Shown: in pieces, positions 45,349 to 58,751 of the stretch
How the letters are laid out: every line of letters starts with the position of its first letter
Position numbering within the stretch: the first letter of the stretch is position 1
Origin: Sphingobacterium thalpophilum
GTDB lineage: Bacteria; Bacteroidota; Bacteroidia; Sphingobacteriales; Sphingobacteriaceae
Length of the DNA stretch: 64,000 nucleotides
Assembly: GCF_901482695.1 (NCBI RefSeq)
Contig: NZ_LR590484.1
Span: forward strand, 4,712,001-4,776,000
Direction of reading: 5' to 3'
Notes under the pieces: generated by a model
The model's input: only the letters and a program-made list of their open reading frames with translations
The model's database searches: none
What the model was told of the DNA's origin: nothing
Made by a program: the position numbers and the translations under genes

Positions 45349-45855
45349 TTAGAATATGCTTTTTGAGTACGTCTTGAGTTGCTTCTGAAGGGATTTCCGG
45401 GCCATATGTATACGTGTTTTCACTGTTCCTTCCGGAATCTGCAAATGCTCGGCAATCTCATAGTATTTAAAACCTTCCAAAAACATTGCAAATGCGTTGT
45501 AGTGATCTTTAGGAAGACAATGGAGCGCATGTTGAATATCAGAAGCAACAAAATTGTTCTCACCTCTATTGCCGGTAATTTCGTTAGCATAGCCCATACT
45601 TATATATTCATTTCGGTAATTTTCCAGCCGTTTGTTGCGCGTATACTGATTGATATAGGTATTCTTCATGATGATATAAAGCCAGGACATCAATTTTGGG
45701 TGCTTCAAGAACTTTTCTATGGAAGATAGCGATCTCACCATGGTCTCCTGTACCAAGTCCTCTCTTTCGTCTGGATCATTGGTAAACTGCGCCGCTAAAT
45801 ATTTTAATGCAGGTCTTTTTTCTTTAAACAGTTGATCGATTGTGATATTTTCCAT
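45349..45855 (-). CDS. ECF-type RNA polymerase sigma factor (first of two paralogs)
   Basis: 168 aa. Region 2 has EREDLVQETMVRSL and HPKLMSWLYIIMKNTYINQY; region 4 has FKYYEIAEHLQIPEGTVKTRIHMARKSL. It closely resembles the sigma factor at 57872-58384 (shared HPKLMSWLY and EGTVKTRIHM, similar length). No anti-sigma gene with a FecR or zinc-binding domain is adjacent on either side, so control must come from elsewhere. An AT-rich leader of unusual structure precedes it. Confidence 0.92.
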   Translation of the reverse strand: MENITIDQLFKEKRPALKYLAAQFTNDPDEREDLVQETMVRSLSSIEKFLKHPKLMSWLYIIMKNTYINQYTRNKRLENYRNEYISMGYANEITGNRGENNFVASDIQHALHCLPKDHYNAFAMFLEGFKYYEIAEHLQIPEGTVKTRIHMARKSLQKQLKTYSKSIF

Positions 45856-46213: not shown

Positions 46214-46912
46214 ATGGGGGACGATAACAAAGGTATCTATATAGATCCGTCGCGGGCAGAACAGCGTCTGCAGGATACAAATCAACTATGGGAGGGAAGC
46301 CAGGAAGATTTTTATAAATCTATTATACGCAGTCAACAGGATGATCTGGGCCGGATAGGTCGTTACTTTCGTGATGAGCTTGCCCAAGAATTATACGGAA
46401 TGCGGATCTCATTGCAAAATTTTACCAATAGACATGGTGACTTTGAAGAATTACGTTGCCTTCGGGATGCGTTGACCACGCTCGTAATAGAACTGCGCAA
46501 CAAAGCTGTTTTACTGTATAATCCGATTTTGAATGATCTGGGGATCTTTCATGCAGTAGACGAGGTCGTGGCGTCTTACAAGCAGCGACTGGGTTTATCT
46601 ATTGATATCCTGCTTGATCCAAACCTTAAAGAAATGCCACATTATATGCAAGTTCATCTTTTCAAACTTCTGACTACATTGTTTGAATATCTGAAAGATG
46701 AACTTACCGTACAAGCCATTTCCTTATCGGTTCAGCTTATCGATTTTGCAGTCATTATCAAAGTACTTCCTTATTTTCGAAAGGATGGCTCAAGAGCTAG
46801 TGCCAAAACGAGTAGTTCTCCTTTGCGATTACGAAAAATCGCGGAGCTATACAGCGCAGATATCCTCAATGAAACGGTAGAAACAGGTATTTTATTGAAA
46901 TTAACGATTTAA
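46214..46912 (+). CDS. Histidine-kinase-like protein without phospho-acceptor His (pseudo-kinase)
   Basis: 232 aa, soluble. Residues 40-70 align with the HisKA_3 dimerisation helix of NarX/DesK-type kinases: DLGRIGRYFRDELAQELYG stands where RIARELHDxLGQxL is expected. The His is Arg53, with the following Asp kept. The later part (about 145-232) follows the ATPase domain layout, but the N box lacks its Asn and no G boxes are visible. It therefore cannot act as a normal kinase. It lies 7 bp before a LuxR response regulator and is probably its partner or inhibitor. Confidence 0.75.
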   Translation: MGDDNKGIYIDPSRAEQRLQDTNQLWEGSQEDFYKSIIRSQQDDLGRIGRYFRDELAQELYGMRISLQNFTNRHGDFEELRCLRDALTTLVIELRNKAVLLYNPILNDLGIFHAVDEVVASYKQRLGLSIDILLDPNLKEMPHYMQVHLFKLLTTLFEYLKDELTVQAISLSVQLIDFAVIIKVLPYFRKDGSRASAKTSSSPLRLRKIAELYSADILNETVETGILLKLTI

Positions 46913-46919
46913 AAAAACA

Positions 46920-47576
46920 ATGATAAAAATCTTATTGGTGGAGGACCACATGGTGGTACGTAACGGCATTAAGTTACTACTGGAATCGCAAGACGACTTT
47001 GAAGTAGTAGGAGAAGCGTCAAATGGTCGTGAAGCACTGAACTTCTTGTATACCCATACTTCTCCCGATATCGTTTTAACAGATATCAGTATGGAGGAGA
47101 TGGACGGCATGGAACTTTTGCAGCAGTTGAAAGAGGCTTATCCGGATGTCAAAGTCGTTATCCTATCTATGTTAAACCAAATTAACTATGTGATCGAGGC
47201 GTTTGAATATGGCCTTGCGGGATATTTGGTCAAGAATGTCGGTTATAACGAGCTACTATTTGCTTTGAAGCACATTGCCACCGGAGGGCGTTATATGAGT
47301 GAGGAGATTTCGATGTTGTTGCTAGAACAAGTGCGTTCAGGGCAAACGTATATACAATCATCTACGGTTTTACAAATGGACTTCGATATTTCCGAACGTG
47401 AACTGGAAGTTCTGAAATTAATTGCCGAAGGATACACGAATATAGAGATCGCCGATAAAATATTTTTGAGCAAGCGCACCGTCGAAGGACATCGCCAGAA
47501 TTTAATAGAAAAGGCTGGGGTGAAGAATACAGCACATTTGGTAAAATTTGCTTTTGAACACGGCATTTTAAATTAA
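46920..47576 (+). CDS. LuxR/NarL-family response regulator (pseudo-kinase partner)
   Basis: 218 aa. Receiver with acidic pair ED (8-9), phospho-acceptor Asp55 in LTDIS and the conserved Lys in LVKN; HTH at DISERELEVLKLIAEGYTNIEIADKIF. All phosphorylation residues are intact although the neighbour lacks kinase residues, so phosphate must come from another kinase or small donor. Paralog of the regulator at 15215-15877. The translated pair is tightly spaced (7 bp). Confidence 0.92.
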   Translation: MIKILLVEDHMVVRNGIKLLLESQDDFEVVGEASNGREALNFLYTHTSPDIVLTDISMEEMDGMELLQQLKEAYPDVKVVILSMLNQINYVIEAFEYGLAGYLVKNVGYNELLFALKHIATGGRYMSEEISMLLLEQVRSGQTYIQSSTVLQMDFDISERELEVLKLIAEGYTNIEIADKIFLSKRTVEGHRQNLIEKAGVKNTAHLVKFAFEHGILN

Positions 47577-50768: not shown

Positions 50769-52940
50769 TTATAAGTCATTCAGCATATGATCCGGAAAAG
50801 GTTTGACGATAGGAAAGTAAAGGTGTACTATTGTGCCTTCGTTTACTTGGGAATTAATTTCTATACGTCCACCCAGCCGTTCCATGATGCGTTTGACAAG
50901 GGACAGACCGATTCCTGTTCCCTTTATATTACCCACATTATCGGCTCTCGAAAACATCTCATAGATATGTGGCAAATGTGCAGAAGGGATGCCGATGCCA
51001 TTATCAATAACACAGTAATGGGTGTGTTCATCCTCAAGGATACTTTCGATTCGGACAGTGGGATTGTCTGCCTGAGCTGAGTATTTAATGGCATTCACAA
51101 TCAGATTGGTGAATATTTGATAAACCGCACTTTTTTCACCCCACACTGGGAAGAGCTGTCCGAAAGATGGCTGACAATTGGTAGCGTTGTAAAGGATTTT
51201 GTTTTCCTGAAAAATCCGCTGAATGGTATATGAAAGTGGCAGAGGCTCCTTGTCCAGAGCATTGGCACGGTGCTGGCTGAGCTGGACCATATTGTTGATA
51301 ATGTCTTCAATATTACTGATGCTGCGATTAAAATTCTGATACCATTTATTGGATTTGGTCCTGTCCATATTGTCAGTATGCTGTTGCAAAAACTGTATAC
51401 CCATTTTCAGAATCGAGAGTGGATTTTTTAAATCATGTGATAGCGTATAGGTAAACATTTCCAGTTCGTTGTTTAAGCTGAGTAGCTCTTCATTAAGGAG
51501 CTGTCGCTCTTTAAGCTTTCTGAATATCGACTCTTTAATGATGTGGTTGAGTCGAAGCACAAAATTGATTTCGGCATCATTCCACGGTCTGGCTGTATCA
51601 TATTGGATATCTTCCGAAATTCTGAGCCCCTGACTGTCTTGCATTTTGAGTTGAATGACACGGCTCTCCTCTTCTTTTCTGAACCAGACCAGATAATAAT
51701 CATTTTCCAAACCTATTTTAAGGTACATTAGACCAGCAAAATTCAGTTTTTCACGAAACGTAGGCTGATGGTTTAGTCTGAAATTATAGTCTTTAAATAG
51801 TGCTTTATCTGTATGTTGCTGTAGGAAATGGACGATTTCATAAAATTGTGACTTCGGAGGTACCTGTCCGTAATGAAATACATCCCCTTGGTTGAAAATC
51901 GCCAGTCCGTCGGCATGAACAAGCTGGGTCAGGATATCCATATGCTGTACTAGTGCGCAGTTGACCATCATATTTTCTGACAGACTTTTCTTTAATTCAT
52001 CCTCAGCAATTTTGAGCAGCTCTGATCGCTCGAGTAGATTTTGTTTGATATGGCTTTCATACTTGCTAGCCGCTGCTTGTATCGCGAAAGCGCAGAGTTT
52101 ACGTTGTTGTAAGTCGATCTGTTTTTTCTTCGTATGCCGTGCGATGACCAGGCCCCAAAATTGCCCATCGATACAGATGCGGAAAAAGAGTGCACTTTTG
52201 GCATTGATCTGCTGGAGGAAAAGCTGATGGAGAGCGGGGATCGGCTGGAGCAAACTCGAAACTGTGTCTAGATCTTCTTCTATATAAATAAAGTTCTGTT
52301 GATTTTCGTCGATATGCGGGACATAGCGATAAGAATAAGCGCTGTAATATGCTATCACATCAGGAGGCATAAAATCACGGGAAAACGCCTTATTTCTATA
52401 GCAGGCAGTGCCGTCTGCTGTGTGTTCTGCAATGACTTTGCTGAAACCAGTTTCTTGGATCTGTAAAACGAAAACATGGTCGTAACCTAATAGTTTATTG
52501 ATTGCGAAACATACGCGCTCCCAGCTATCAGGATGAATTGTATCGAGCAGGAAGTTGAACTCGTTTATCTTTTTGGCTGATATGTATTTTTTATGTTGCC
52601 TTTCCCATTCAACATATAGAAAACTCTGATGGTTTCGAAATTTAAAATATAAACGTTCGCCATCTACCTTTAATGGTAAGATATGCCGAGACTGGCCGCT
52701 TTCACGGAACTCGTTAATAGCGTTTTGGATTTTTACAGCATTGTCACCAAATACATTTGAAAAACCAGCCAGGAACTTTCTGCCTAATAGCGCAGTACTA
52801 GCGAATTTTGTTTTCTTTGCCGCTTGGTCACTAACACCGACAATATGGTCATGTTGGTCTAAGACCAGGAGACAGCCGAAATGCTGAAGTTTGATGGTCT
52901 TAAGATCGCAAGTTTGAAAAATAGTCTCCATATTCGCCAA
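50769..52940 (-). CDS. Phytochrome-like sensor histidine kinase (PAS-GAF-PHY-HisKA-HATPase)
   Basis: 723 aa. Residues 1-120 match the phytochrome PAS_2 domain, with Cys11 (QTCDLKTIKLQHFG) in the place of the bilin-binding Cys of bacteriophytochromes. The GAF part has FMPPDVIAYY in place of PASDIP (its Asp kept), a His in PALHQLFLQQ matching the chromophore His, and GQFWGLVIARH. A PHY-like part follows, then HisKA with His in YTLSHDLKNPLS and the ATPase boxes NLIVNAIKYS, DNGIGIP, GTGIGLSLV. No membrane segment. No bilin-forming haem oxygenase or response regulator is adjacent, so real bilin binding is open. Confidence 0.88.
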   Translation of the reverse strand: MANMETIFQTCDLKTIKLQHFGCLLVLDQHDHIVGVSDQAAKKTKFASTALLGRKFLAGFSNVFGDNAVKIQNAINEFRESGQSRHILPLKVDGERLYFKFRNHQSFLYVEWERQHKKYISAKKINEFNFLLDTIHPDSWERVCFAINKLLGYDHVFVLQIQETGFSKVIAEHTADGTACYRNKAFSRDFMPPDVIAYYSAYSYRYVPHIDENQQNFIYIEEDLDTVSSLLQPIPALHQLFLQQINAKSALFFRICIDGQFWGLVIARHTKKKQIDLQQRKLCAFAIQAAASKYESHIKQNLLERSELLKIAEDELKKSLSENMMVNCALVQHMDILTQLVHADGLAIFNQGDVFHYGQVPPKSQFYEIVHFLQQHTDKALFKDYNFRLNHQPTFREKLNFAGLMYLKIGLENDYYLVWFRKEEESRVIQLKMQDSQGLRISEDIQYDTARPWNDAEINFVLRLNHIIKESIFRKLKERQLLNEELLSLNNELEMFTYTLSHDLKNPLSILKMGIQFLQQHTDNMDRTKSNKWYQNFNRSISNIEDIINNMVQLSQHRANALDKEPLPLSYTIQRIFQENKILYNATNCQPSFGQLFPVWGEKSAVYQIFTNLIVNAIKYSAQADNPTVRIESILEDEHTHYCVIDNGIGIPSAHLPHIYEMFSRADNVGNIKGTGIGLSLVKRIMERLGGRIEINSQVNEGTIVHLYFPIVKPFPDHMLNDL

Positions 52941-53094: not shown

Positions 53095-53706
53095 CTATCT
53101 TTGACTGACGCTATTGGCTAGACCTTTAACCAGCGATTTCCATTGCGGATATGATGCGCCAACTTTAGCCCCCAAACCGATAATAAAGTTTCTGATGTTG
53201 TCTGTCAGATGGCTATTTTCAACATTAACAATTTCATTTCTTCCTGCATATTGTATGAGAATACTGTTTCTCCGCTGCTCGATTAGAAAGGTGGACGAAG
53301 AAACTCCTTCAAAAAAGTGGGCTGTATCTCTATTGTCGGGATGTCTAGGATCCGGGCATGGTTTGAGTGTTAGCGCATAAAGCTTTAATTCTTCGGTACC
53401 CTCATCGACAATATTGACCACAGTTACCCAGTCGTAACCATCGCTGCTCGGTAATCCAGGGCCAGGTATATCTAACCGGATATAGTCATGTAGTTGGATA
53501 GGGCGGTCTATAGGCTGCCCGCTTCGGTCGGTCAGTTGAAACGTAGTGGCTGGGATTTCTGCCAGTTCATACCACTGGTTGACACGTGCGAGATGTGCGC
53601 AGACAGTGTCAAAGGCATGGCTTGCTGCCGCTGTACTCTCAAAATCGACAGTTTCAAAACAGTCGAGCTTTTTACCTTCTTTTTGTTCCGGGATGATATT
53701 TTTCAT
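53095..53706 (-). CDS. Hypothetical protein, unknown family
   Basis: 203 aa from the ATG at 53706, chosen because it is preceded by an A-rich stretch; the frame is open to 53799. The protein is soluble. Recognisable parts are VNQWYELAEIPATTFQLT, IRLDIPGPGLPSSDGYDWVTVVNI and a C-terminal GLGAKVGASYPQWKSLVKGL. It looks like a well-folded, conserved domain, but I do not recognise it. It lies 150 bp downstream of Ku on the same strand. Confidence 0.65.
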   Translation of the reverse strand: MKNIIPEQKEGKKLDCFETVDFESTAAASHAFDTVCAHLARVNQWYELAEIPATTFQLTDRSGQPIDRPIQLHDYIRLDIPGPGLPSSDGYDWVTVVNIVDEGTEELKLYALTLKPCPDPRHPDNRDTAHFFEGVSSSTFLIEQRRNSILIQYAGRNEIVNVENSHLTDNIRNFIIGLGAKVGASYPQWKSLVKGLANSVSQR

Positions 53707-53855
53707 GTTTTTTGTAGAGAACATAGCTCGCTTAGATTTAGTTTGGCGGAGAATCGCCAGTGTTGTATTAATCATACACTCTTTGTGTAGATCCCACATC
53801 AGGAACCAGAAGCTTTATCATTGGGATTCCAATAGATTGAGGTTTTCTCAGTACG

Positions 53856-54611
53856 TTAACCTAAACTAGCCCGTAACTTTGCAAGCAAATCGTCTGCCTT
53901 TGTATTTTCGACTTTAATTTTTCTGATTGTCGGTCGCTTACCTTTATCTTTTTGTTTGATGATCTTCATCAGATCTTCCATGTATTCATTTTTGTATTTG
54001 CTGATATCAAAACTAGAACTGTGCTGCTGGATCAATTGTGTAGCCATATCCATTTCCGCTTTCTGAATTTTGACTGAGGTGGGCAATTTAAGTTCATCGA
54101 GCTCCCTGATTTCTTGTTGATATCTTATCTTATTGAGGACAAGTGCATTCTGGTATGGTTTGATGATAGCAAGATGTTCGACATTGCGCATGACAAAAGC
54201 TCCGAGGCCCGCGGTCTTTGTTTTGTCCAGAGCTTTGACCAGCAGCTGATAGGCTTTTTCACCGCCCTTTTGAGGCTCTAGATAATATGGAGTCTCGAAA
54301 TAGATGCTATCAATATCTGACAATTTAACAAATGTATGCAGATTGACCATCTTTGTTTTTTCTGGACTGGCATCTTCAAAATCAGCGTCCTCAAGGACCA
54401 CATAATGATCTTTCATAAAATACCCTTTGACGATATTATCCCATTTTACTTCCTTACCTGTCTGTTCGTTTACCCGTTTGAATTTAATATTGGCCAGATC
54501 TTTACGGTCGAGCATATCAAGATCCAAACTGCTGCTTTCCGTTGCGCTGTATAATTTTATTGGAATGTTTACCAAGCCGAATCCGATTGCTCCTGTCCAA
54601 ATTGCTCGCAT
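53856..54611 (-). CDS. ku: Ku protein for bacterial non-homologous end joining
   Basis: 251 aa, typical of bacterial Ku homodimers. The start MRAIWTGAIGFGLVNIPIKLY is diagnostic, followed by RVNEQTGKEVKWDNIVKGY, the DNA-ring region IDSIYFETPYYLEPQKGGEKAY and the basic C-terminal tail. It binds double-strand break ends and recruits ligase D. No ligD is in this window, so its partner is elsewhere. Divergent from the FAD oxidase gene; a half-site-like CGTATAAA occurs between them near 54668. Confidence 0.95.
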   Translation of the reverse strand: MRAIWTGAIGFGLVNIPIKLYSATESSSLDLDMLDRKDLANIKFKRVNEQTGKEVKWDNIVKGYFMKDHYVVLEDADFEDASPEKTKMVNLHTFVKLSDIDSIYFETPYYLEPQKGGEKAYQLLVKALDKTKTAGLGAFVMRNVEHLAIIKPYQNALVLNKIRYQQEIRELDELKLPTSVKIQKAEMDMATQLIQQHSSSFDISKYKNEYMEDLMKIIKQKDKGKRPTIRKIKVENTKADDLLAKLRASLG

Positions 54612-54749
54612 ATTTAGCTTCGATTTTAGTTAATAAATCTTTGATAGTGATGTTTAGACTAATAACTCGTATAAACCCCGAAAAGTTTAGACTTTGAAAA
54701 AAAACTTTTCCGTTGTGAAGTGGTTATAATGACGATTGCTGAATTTATT

Positions 54750-55952
54750 ATGGACTTGAAATCACATGAACCATTTTGGATGGTTAAAAATGGCCTGTTG
54801 GCAAGCTATCCCTCGTTGCATGAAAACAAATCCTGCGATATTCTGATTGTGGGCGGGGGCATTACCGGTGCTTTAATTGCCCATCAATGTGTGTCAATGG
54901 GCAAAAAATGTATTGTTATTGATAAGCGAGAACTTGTAAACGGAAGTTCTGCCGCCACAACATCGATGCTACAGTATGAAATCGATATGCCACTTTACAA
55001 ATTGAAGGAGCTCATCGGCGCAACTGGAGCACTCGCCAGTTACAGGGCATGCAGCGAGGCTATCGATACCCTCGGACAGCTTTCGAAAGAGATCGGATCC
55101 AAAGCAGGCTTCCGCAGAAAAGATTCTCTTTATTATGCCTCTCGCAAGAAGGATGTCGCTTGGCTAAAGACAGAATTTGAAGCGCGGAAAGCTGCCGGAT
55201 TTGATGTGCAATGGTTATCGGAAGAGCAGATCAGATCTCGTTATGACCTGACGGGAGCCTATGGCGGAATTATATCCAAGCAGGGGGGCAGTATGGATGC
55301 GTTTTGCTTTGCCCATGAGCTATTCCGCCATAATGCAGAAAAAGGTCTAGAAATTTTCGATAAAACAGAGCTTTTGTCAGTCCAATGTAATGCACGCAGC
55401 AATTTGGTCCGTGTGTCTACCGGCGTGGAGATCAGTGCAAAAAAAGTCGTCTATTGTACCGGTTTTGAGACAGTACAATTGATTCCGGAGCGATTTGTGA
55501 AGTTGCTGAGCACTTTTGCTATTGTCTCTGAGGTCGACCCTATATTGTATAAACAGTATAATGATTTGTTGGTCTGGAATACCTCAGACCCGTATTTATA
55601 TATGCGGACAACGGATGACTGTCGATTTTTGATAGGAGGTGAAGATGAGGAATTCCAGGACGCAAAAAAAAGAGACGCATTGATTGAACAAAAGTGTTTA
55701 AAACTGGAGAAGTCTTTTCATAAGATTTTTAACAGGGATTTTTATCGCGATTTTAACTGGGCGGGCACTTTTGGTGCGACGAAAGATGGTCTACCATATA
55801 TTGGAGAGCACAAAAAATATAAGAACAGCTATTTTGTGTGTGGCTTTGGCGGAAACGGTATTACGTTTTCCGTTGCTGCGATGGACATGGTGTGTCACTG
55901 GATAAACAACAAAAAACATCCGCTTTCTGAATGGTTTCGTTTTGGTCGGTAG
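54750..55952 (+). CDS. FAD-dependent oxidoreductase (DAO/glycine oxidase family)
   Basis: 400 aa from the ATG at 54750; two earlier ATGs in frame are less likely. The FAD-binding Rossmann motif is ILIVGGGITGALIAHQC, with IDKRELVNGSSAATTSM following, and the late FAD block CGFGGNGITFSVAAMDM. DAO-type enzymes oxidise amines or amino acids; the substrate is not readable. It is divergent from Ku and 2 bp convergent with topoisomerase IB. Confidence 0.88.
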   Translation: MDLKSHEPFWMVKNGLLASYPSLHENKSCDILIVGGGITGALIAHQCVSMGKKCIVIDKRELVNGSSAATTSMLQYEIDMPLYKLKELIGATGALASYRACSEAIDTLGQLSKEIGSKAGFRRKDSLYYASRKKDVAWLKTEFEARKAAGFDVQWLSEEQIRSRYDLTGAYGGIISKQGGSMDAFCFAHELFRHNAEKGLEIFDKTELLSVQCNARSNLVRVSTGVEISAKKVVYCTGFETVQLIPERFVKLLSTFAIVSEVDPILYKQYNDLLVWNTSDPYLYMRTTDDCRFLIGGEDEEFQDAKKRDALIEQKCLKLEKSFHKIFNRDFYRDFNWAGTFGATKDGLPYIGEHKKYKNSYFVCGFGGNGITFSVAAMDMVCHWINNKKHPLSEWFRFGR

Positions 55953-55954
55953 TG

Positions 55955-56920
55955 CTAACTATATTTGAGCAGGAAGCGAAATAGCTTAAATTCAAGCTTT
56001 TCCAAAGGAATCTCTTTGTTTATTACTGGAAATTTACTTTCCATGTAAACCCGTTGGATTGTTGGATGGACATAGTATTTTTCAGAAACAGCTTTGGTGT
56101 TGCCCAATTCCTTCGCGACGGCTTTTATGACAGAGTTTAATTGTCTTTTGCGTGCCTTAGGCTCATCAGGCTGTTTAGCTTTGCAAAGTAGTTTGAATGC
56201 TTCCCTGCTGGCCCCCCATATGCGGATGTCCTTGCAGCTGATATTTCCGGGACAATGTGTACGCAGGTAACTGTTGAAGGTGCGCCCGCAAAAGCGGCCT
56301 TCACAATTTGTTTTGTCAAGACAGAAGACCGTTTTCCCCTTAATTTGCATCAGTTGTCCTAATAAACACGCGAGTTGTTTGTTACGCCAGGTCTTCTCCT
56401 GAAAGACACCTTTCTTTCCTTTATAGGCGAGCGTGATGGTGTTACCGCTGATTTTAACGTGTCTTTTTTCCAATGTGCTCAGGCCATATGATTTATAAGC
56501 CAACGTATAGCGTTTGTTGCCTATGCGGATGAGGGTGCTGTCCATTATTTTGAAGGCTACAGCACATAGCTTTTCCATATTCCAGGTCTCCTGTTTGAGC
56601 TGGCGTGAACTGATCTTCCGCAATTCCTGAAGATACTGACCCACGTATAGAATCTGTTTAAATTTTTCGGATTGCTGTTGGTTGACAAACTTTGGATGAT
56701 AAACGTATTGTTTACGGCCCTTTTGGTCGTAACCATAAGCCTGTAAATTACTACGCGGGCTTCTAGAAATCCAGACCTCCTTCCAGTTGGGCGGGATGAC
56801 AAGGGCACCAATCCTTTTTAAAATCTTGGCATCCTCGATCACCTGACCCGATGGATCGTAATATTTGAATTTATTTCTGATTTTTCGTCTTGTATAACCT
56901 TCGGTATGCTTCGTCTTCAT
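55955..56920 (-). CDS. Type IB DNA topoisomerase (poxvirus/bacterial type)
   Basis: 321 aa from the ATG at 56920. Family marks: RKIRNKFKYYDPSGQVIED at the N-terminus, IPPNWKEVWI, catalytic-site block YKGKKGVFQEKTW with its Lys, CSGKDIRIWGA-like segment SCKDIRIWGASRE, and the nucleophile Tyr region GNTKAVSEKYYVHPTIQ. It relaxes supercoils through a 3'-phosphotyrosine link. Nearby Ku suggests a DNA repair/stress grouping. Confidence 0.92.
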   Translation of the reverse strand: MKTKHTEGYTRRKIRNKFKYYDPSGQVIEDAKILKRIGALVIPPNWKEVWISRSPRSNLQAYGYDQKGRKQYVYHPKFVNQQQSEKFKQILYVGQYLQELRKISSRQLKQETWNMEKLCAVAFKIMDSTLIRIGNKRYTLAYKSYGLSTLEKRHVKISGNTITLAYKGKKGVFQEKTWRNKQLACLLGQLMQIKGKTVFCLDKTNCEGRFCGRTFNSYLRTHCPGNISCKDIRIWGASREAFKLLCKAKQPDEPKARKRQLNSVIKAVAKELGNTKAVSEKYYVHPTIQRVYMESKFPVINKEIPLEKLEFKLFRFLLKYS

Positions 56921-56964
56921 AAGGCAGGGTAACGTTATAATAGTATAGAAAGTCAACTTGACCG

Positions 56965-57432
56965 TTAAGCGTTGTCCCGTAATGTCTTGATATACTCATG
57001 TGCTTCGAGCTGTATACCGAGCTGTTTTTCGATCAGTAGCAAGAGATCATGGGTAATTTCCCAGTCTTCATTGTCCACGACGTCCTTATAAGTCTTTTTA
57101 AAAGCATCTTCACCTTGTTCGCAGCTAGCCAGTAAGCTTTTTGCATCGTTGCCGGAAACCGCAACTCTAATTTCCATCCAGATTCTAAATAATTTCCCGC
57201 TGATCATGGTTCCGTCTGTAGCTGCTTCGGACTGCTGTTCGAGATAAGGTGTAAGTTCTTCAATAAACATCTGAGATTGGTTTATATAGGATGAGAAAAT
57301 GTTATTCAAGCCCCCCTCGAGGTGATGACGGTTCGCAATCTCTATTGCTTTTTGGTAACCGGCAATTCGGTCATTGTTGATCTGGATTAGATCGTTGATC
57401 AGGCTGCTGTCATTTATTGTAGTGGATTCCAT
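56965..57432 (-). CDS. PA2169/DUF2383-family four-helix protein
   Basis: 155 aa from the ATG at 57432. The ferritin-like helix pattern fits the PA2169 family: LINDLIQINNDRIAGYQKAIE at the start, a helical middle (IFSSYINQSQMFIEELTPYL) and CEQGEDAFKKTYKDVVDNED. Such proteins are produced under stress and their chemistry is not known. It lies 44 bp upstream of topoisomerase IB on the same strand. Confidence 0.85.
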   Translation of the reverse strand: MESTTINDSSLINDLIQINNDRIAGYQKAIEIANRHHLEGGLNNIFSSYINQSQMFIEELTPYLEQQSEAATDGTMISGKLFRIWMEIRVAVSGNDAKSLLASCEQGEDAFKKTYKDVVDNEDWEITHDLLLLIEKQLGIQLEAHEYIKTLRDNA

Positions 57433-57540
57433 GGTTCTATTTTTTTGTTTTATATTATTTTCAGATTTCAATATGTTGTTCAGGGAAAGAACCTGTGTGG
57501 TAAGCTTTCAGTTTACCAAGGACTGGAAAAATGTGTTCCT

Positions 57541-57871: not shown

Positions 57872-58384
57872 TTAATCAAGTCGATATACTTTTAATTGCC
57901 GTTGCAGCTTCTTGCGTAGCATATGTATTCGTGTTTTGACAGTGCCTTCAGGCATCGCTAAATGAGCGGCTATTTCGTGATATTTATAACCATCAAGAAA
58001 CAACCGGAAGAGCTGGTAATTTTCGTCGGACAGACTACACATCGCTTTTTCGATATCATCAGCGATAAACCTATTCTCTGCTTTGTTGTTTTCAATGGTA
58101 TTGCTTGATTCAAGATCAATATAGGTGTCATGTATTTCGCTACCGCGCCTCGCTTTCCGATACCGGTTGATATAAACATTTCTCATGATGACATACAGCC
58201 ATGACATAAGTTTCGGGTGCTTGACGAGGTCATCTATAGATCGCCATGCTCGGATCAGCGTTTCTTGGACGAGGTCTTCCTTTTCATCAGGGTCGGCGGT
58301 AAACTTGCTCGCAAAATGCTTCAATAAACATTTTTTTTCTTCGACAAGGATGTTTATACTGGAATTGTTCATAATAGCATTCAT
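57872..58384 (-). CDS. ECF-type RNA polymerase sigma factor (second paralog)
   Basis: 170 aa from the ATG at 58384 (ATG at 58372 also possible). Region 2: EKEDLVQETLIRAW and HPKLMSWLYVIMRNVYINRY; region 4: YKYHEIAAHLAMPEGTVKTRIHMLRKKL. It is a clear paralog of the sigma factor at 45349-45855. Again no anti-sigma partner is visible. A 367-bp non-coding region lies upstream. Confidence 0.93.
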   Translation of the reverse strand: MNAIMNNSSINILVEEKKCLLKHFASKFTADPDEKEDLVQETLIRAWRSIDDLVKHPKLMSWLYVIMRNVYINRYRKARRGSEIHDTYIDLESSNTIENNKAENRFIADDIEKAMCSLSDENYQLFRLFLDGYKYHEIAAHLAMPEGTVKTRIHMLRKKLQRQLKVYRLD

Positions 58385-58751
58385 TTTTGTAGGATGTTCT
58401 CTCCTTGAGCTTACCACAATTAAAATGCTAAAATTGTATAGCGAAATAGAGCTTAAACTTGTTTAGACACTTAAATGTGGAAAATACGTGGCACGGAAAC
58501 TTGGCTATGTCATCGCTAAAGCGCTGCAGAAATGACTTGTTCAAGACCTATCTTTTAACCCACAGAAAATTATACGCTTACAAAAAGGGTATTTAACTCT
58601 GGATAAATGTCTGAATTACGGGTGTGGCGATTTCTTGGCGGTGAAGCACTTTGCTCAGTTTTTTAAACAGTAAAAGAGTATTTTTAATTTTTTTGAACGA
58701 AAGATATACTAGATCCGTTCCTTCTATAAAATGAACACAATTCAAATTACT
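58385..58751. other. Non-coding region between the second ECF sigma gene and a lipoprotein gene
   Basis: About 370 bp, AT-rich, divergent. I see no gene, no exact -7 element and no strong dyad. It must hold the promoters of both flanking genes. Confidence 0.4.

Follow-up and report, generated by a model that had tools for sequence, protein, structure and literature searches.

In DrBphP, the bacteriophytochrome against which the sequences of this study were aligned, Asp207, His260 and the other residues listed below are positions that we take to hold biliverdin. Bilin phytochromes also need His260, Arg222 and Tyr216. One bacteriophytochrome reportedly turned from a light sensor into a redox sensor (Vuillet 2007, listed in PMC6879726). 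This is said to be RpBphP4 of Rhodopseudomonas palustris, an alphaproteobacterial protein that reportedly lost its pigment and took on another signal.

The closest Cys-bearing relatives of the kinase described here are found in the genus Sphingobacterium itself and have the same domain architecture. These Cys-bearing phytochromes are also odd, as PASDIP is replaced by PE[FS]DIP, and they share with the group described below a Phe that mostly takes the place of His38 and a Gln that often takes the place of His290 (77 of the 77 listed Cys-bearing sequences have this Gln). No description of the Cys-less group itself was found in the open-licence literature.

The kinase gene and its altered pigment site

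The gene lies in a window, by which we mean the whole stretch of 64,000 nucleotides of Sphingobacterium thalpophilum DNA that was analysed (Table 1). The open reading frame at 50769-52940 is intact and has 723 codons if counted from the TTG. However, a Met stands close to the position of the ATG in the aligned orthologues, which makes the ATG the likelier start, and the residue that the first-pass annotation had numbered Cys11 thus becomes Cys8. The PHY domain scores 63.8 bits, above the Pfam cut-off, HisKA and HATPase_c also pass their cut-offs, and PAS_2 and GAF are weak and remain below theirs, while in L005 (4431-6611), which is the Cys-bearing paralogue in this genome, all five domains pass. 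As expected of a HisKA-class kinase, H499, N613, G645 and G647 are invariant in alignment A2. In the comparison of the whole clade, some of the rows that miss other kinase motifs are truncated ORFs (e.g. L149 and L046).

Table 1. Positions in the window of the kinase gene, of its discussed residues and of the neighbouring island genes.
Feature	Position	Strand	Remark
Phytochrome-derived histidine kinase gene	50769..52931	minus	720 aa from ATG; alternative start: TTG at 52940
Cys8 (Cys11 of the first-pass annotation)	52908..52910	minus	DrBphP position 28, not Cys24
FSRDFMP (residues 183-189), counterpart of FPASDIP	52365..52385	minus	from alignment with DrBphP
His235, equivalent to DrBphP His260	52227..52229	minus	kept in 46/58 listed clade members
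His499, phospho-acceptor in SHDLKNP	51435..51437	minus	invariant in alignment A2
ECF-type sigma factor, island gene	45349..45855	minus	
HisKA_3-like companion of the regulator	46214..46912	plus	no recognised ATPase domain; Arg for phospho-acceptor His
NarL-type response regulator (receiver and GerE), candidate partner	46920..47576	plus	family in 37/56 clade loci
Gene directly upstream of the kinase, no known domain	53095..53799	minus	present in 23/27 close loci
Ku, island gene	53856..54611	minus	
FAD-dependent oxidoreductase, DAO family, island gene	54720..55952	plus	
Bacterial topoisomerase IB, island gene	55955..56956	minus	
DUF2383 protein, island gene	56965..57471	minus	
Second ECF-type sigma factor, island gene	57872..58417	minus	

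The structure model of the window protein (pLDDT 85.1, input alignment of 39 sequences) matches the photosensory modules of phytochromes, with Z values of 32.4 for Agp1 and about 30 for DrBphP, and the match extends from residues 11-13 to about 465-480; the predicted fold is partly carried in, since the alignment used by the predictor included canonical phytochromes. Taken with the Pfam matches, the model bears out a PAS-GAF-PHY-histidine kinase architecture, in line with the phytochrome-like kinase of the first-pass annotation, and the fold that the annotation presupposed, as judged from the photosensory module as a whole.

The pigment site turned out to be less well preserved than the annotation had it. 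A Cys had been placed at the bilin-binding position, with three residues missing after it, but in the alignment with DrBphP this Cys falls four positions off Cys24 and stands 8 residues before a conserved Gln, as opposed to 12 for the bilin Cys, so four residues differ and not three. The structural alignment agrees, as the first model residue to pair is residue 12, with residue 32 of DrBphP (5mg1). In the nearest listed orthologues (66-73% identity) the position of Cys8 is mostly N or S, and it may be absent. The Asp that had been described as kept aligns with Ser206, one column before Asp207: in the window protein Asp186 occupies position 206, which in the listed orthologues is mostly D, S, T or E, and Phe187 occupies position 207. 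The His, on the other hand, was identified correctly. The typical PHIPG and PASDIP motifs are lost, as had been noticed, and the PRxSF tongue motif is also absent from the window protein. Exchange of the three residues among homologues had been named as evidence against the annotation's reading, and this is what we find for the Cys and the Asp, whereas the His is largely kept. The annotation was right to set the protein apart from bilin phytochromes, and another ligand may be bound, but the accompanying suggestion that a bilin is bound in an unusual way is unlikely since Asp207, Arg254, Ser257, Ser272, Ser274 and the tongue motif are lost in nearly the whole clade.

The Cys-less clade and its relatives

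For comparison, 139 ORFs of the genus were aligned with DrBphP (the reference sequence is identical to 8sgk in 507 of 507 residues), to which we added 21 phytochromes from other named records (mainly of Sphingobacteriaceae) and two more from other genera of the family. Six of 145 ORF matches, including some broken clade members, were omitted as fragments shorter than 560 aa (from L054, L106, L125 and L146). The group counts given here describe 140 places among the matches listed and not the whole genus.

A well-supported clade, hereafter clade A, includes the window protein and comprises at least 58 sequences, nearly all of them from Sphingobacterium (the members in G190 and G159 are from outside the genus). 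Among the matches listed, Cys24 is found in none of the 58 members of clade A, in 76 of the 77 Cys-bearing Sphingobacterium sequences (the lone exception, L107, is truncated at its start) and in all 21 of the other records. The respective counts, in the same order and with the same scope, are 0/58, 77/77 and 21/21 for Asp207, 0/58, 76/77 and 21/21 for PRxSF, 1/58, 77/77 and 21/21 for Ser257, 1/58, 76/77 and 21/21 for Ser272, 2/58, 77/77 and 20/21 for Ser274, and 6/58, 77/77 and 21/21 for Arg254. An aromatic residue at position 207 shows the reverse distribution (56/58, 0/77 and 0/21), while His260 (46/58, 77/77 and 21/21) and Arg222 (50/58, 77/77 and 21/21) are common to most sequences. In other words, the Cys-bearing phytochromes of the genus keep Cys24, Asp207, His260, Arg254 and PRxSF, whereas clade A lacks Cys24, Asp207 and PRxSF. 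This is not an erosion of everything, as a specific set of residues is lost and some pocket residues stay. The own genome contains a second clade A kinase (L006, 4721-6844) in which the Cys, the Asp and the His are all lost.

With the trait columns removed, a single branch separates clade A from all other sequences in both trees, with a support of 1.0 in one and of 100 in the other, which was built on 51 chosen rows. The fork that sets clade A inside the Cys-bearing group has only a moderate support of 91 and is drawn open. The Cys label needs two changes on the tree, one for clade A and one for a group of six, and we read both as losses because the outgroups carry the Cys. This second, separately Cys-less group of the genus, group C (L141, L142, L143, L144, L148 and L170), resembles clade A in the loss of the Cys and of PRxSF, but the loss is a separate one on the tree, and Asp207 is kept in 4 of the 6 members and His260 in all 6. 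In a published study, Bacteroidetes phytochromes, including one of Sphingobacterium spiritivorum, are at the base of the phytochrome trees (PMC4422448). Such a root could be open to bias from long branches and from Cys-less Sphingobacterium paralogues.

The sensor half of the protein is under strong purifying selection, with omega at about 0.07: the value is 0.070 in close clade A (17 close pairs) as compared to 0.085 in the Cys-bearing group (36 pairs), and the corresponding values for the kinase half are 0.046 and 0.060. These rates are those of the groups, since the synonymous sites of the window gene itself are saturated with respect to its nearest relatives.

The surrounding island and a candidate partner

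The segment 45349-58417 of the window is a recurrent island that contains two ECF sigma factors, the regulator, Ku, topoisomerase IB, a DUF2383 protein, a DUF326 protein and a DAO oxidoreductase; it has the look of an island for general stress in Sphingobacterium. Linkage was followed in 51 of the 55 clade loci (27 close and 24 other ones), in 25 Cys-bearing loci with longer flanks and in 20 control stretches, which were set at round coordinates in five genomes and are not random. The NarL-type regulator is nearby in 23/27 close loci, 11/24 other clade loci and 6/25 Cys-bearing loci, and the first ECF sigma factor in 24/27, 14/24 and 6/25, respectively. The hypothetical gene upstream of the kinase (23/27, 6/24 and 0/25) and Ku (17/27, 3/24 and 0/25) are absent from the Cys-bearing sample, and topoisomerase IB (20/27, 4/24 and 3/25) and DUF2383 (14/27, 3/24 and 4/25) are found there a few times. 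Each of these six genes scored 0/20 in the control stretches. A candidate promoter or regulator-site motif of the island, GTCTAAAC, has 3 copies in the window island, but it was discarded as it is no commoner in the orthologous loci than in the controls.

From gene linkage we infer that the kinase and the regulator are a pair. Members of the regulator family are the directly divergent neighbour of a clade A kinase in 10 places. In addition, the regulator is flanked in 25 of 25 loci by a short HisKA_3-like protein, whose phospho-acceptor His is an Arg in the window as well as in the 18 nearest relatives (some distant ones have the His). With such a neighbour, the regulator would depend on another kinase, and the closest one that may serve is the phytochrome-like kinase. 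On the other hand, the regulator is absent from the examined stretch in 17 of the 51 clade loci, it is also linked to 6 of 25 Cys-bearing phytochromes, and in the window it is several genes away from the kinase. Both HisKA kinases and NarL-type regulators often have partners of other classes.

Possible signals and comparison with known systems

Our best explanation, to which we give a probability of roughly two thirds, is that the gene encodes a sensor kinase of phytochrome descent which no longer carries a bilin, still has the phytochrome fold and a complete kinase half, and feeds a stress regulator. The signal is probably other than light, because the pigment-holding residues are lost and the gene is found among stress-response genes; it might be redox, a protein partner, or a hydrophobic ligand that occupies the refilled pocket. 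The signal would travel along the PHY region and the helical spine, reach His499 and then be handed to the NarL-type regulator, which in turn may control stress genes, e.g. those for Ku, topoisomerase IB and the ECF sigma factors. A clade-specific Cys, C325, is found in 41 of 56 clade sequences, in 27 of the 28 of the close group and in none of the 77 Cys-bearing ones among the matches listed; this is only a hint from the sequences, but it makes thiol redox sensing conceivable. A more detailed scenario, which we consider tentative and somewhat less probable than its opposite, is that a Sphingobacteriaceae phytochrome was duplicated, that light sensing was lost once as the Asp was replaced by an aromatic residue, and that a new signal, i.e. 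thiol redox or a hydrophobic ligand, drives the stress island through the NarL-type regulator.

Several observations count against a bilin-free protein and would fit a kinase that is still a light sensor, if an unusual one, with biliverdin bound either non-covalently or via the displaced Cys8. His260, Arg222 and Tyr216 are kept in 28 of the 28 closest relatives among the matches listed, the phytochrome fold is kept in the model, and biliverdin may be present in the cell because the genome contains a haem oxygenase: a genome search gave one PF01126 match about 0.5 Mb away, and, as the annotation had stated, none adjoins the gene in the window. In the genus, 77 of the 93 genomes have a PF01126 match. 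A linked haem oxygenase is common in bacteriophytochromes, though not required. However, a haem oxygenase adjoins none of the 55 clade A genes as opposed to at least 6 of the 77 Cys-bearing ones, the flanks of most of the latter being shorter; the BLAST queries were 16 of 30 haem oxygenase loci together with that of L007, and the figure of 6 is a lower bound since BLAST missed a PF01126 match beside L173. Moreover, in three genomes of 99% completeness (G050, G190 and G159) the clade member is the sole PHY protein and PF01126 has no match, while in two others (G047 and G064) it is the sole PHY protein and a haem oxygenase is present. A missing haem oxygenase was rejected as proof of a missing bilin, as G001, G011, G015, G032 and G068 have Cys-bearing phytochromes but no PF01126 match, and biliverdin may thus come from other enzymes or sources. 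As for the site itself, Cys8 is not common to the orthologues, Phe stands on the Asp207 position, and among the 28 closest relatives listed Ser257, Tyr176, Ser272, Ser274 and PRxSF are absent from all and Arg254 from 23, which leaves biliverdin binding improbable.

Another possibility is that the old pocket was remodelled to take up some other small ligand, which would then be the signal. The clade-specific and nearly fixed residues F187, P232, Y201 and Y203 in or near this pocket and the purifying selection on the sensor half would agree with this, but the changes D207F, S272A and S274F go from polar to hydrophobic, just as expected if the pocket were simply filled, and we regard a dedicated ligand site as unlikely, though the least so among these alternatives. 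Both kinds of protein co-occur in the own genome and in others of the genus, so one could also think of a heterodimer in which the clade A protein is a partner or modulator of the Cys-bearing phytochrome and not an independent sensor. Yet the clade member is the sole PHY protein in G047, G050, G064, G190 and G159, and there are clade-fixed differences in the DHp helix; we see this possibility as slim, on a par with retained biliverdin. Finally, a few copies are broken or truncated (L054, L125 and L106/L198, the latter from S. deserti), as would be seen in a decaying gene, but the ORFs are intact in most loci, the kinase residues are kept, and an omega of about 0.07 speaks so clearly against decay that we give it hardly any weight.

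The preferred reading, a bilin-free sensor kinase, has some consequences. If the duplication scenario were true, a phytochrome relay would work without any bilin. The 58 listed clade A sequences stand beside 77 listed Cys-bearing relatives as a natural set, with both kinds present in one genome, and, as the pigment site is gone while the signalling fold is still selected, a comparison would allow one to ask which parts of the relay depend on bilin and what else a phytochrome fold can sense. In these bacteria, light sensing should not be concluded from a PHY domain or from a match to PAS-GAF-PHY.

In comparison to the bacteriophytochromes of the DrBphP type, clade A has the PAS-GAF-PHY fold and the histidine kinase output in common, but it is without Cys24, Asp207, DIP and PRxSF. 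By analogy, the nearest published idea for such a protein would be the light-to-redox phytochrome of R. palustris. Clade A differs from RpBphP4 in that it is a separate clade of Sphingobacteriaceae, with at least 58 sequences, 56 of which have an aromatic residue in the place of Asp207.
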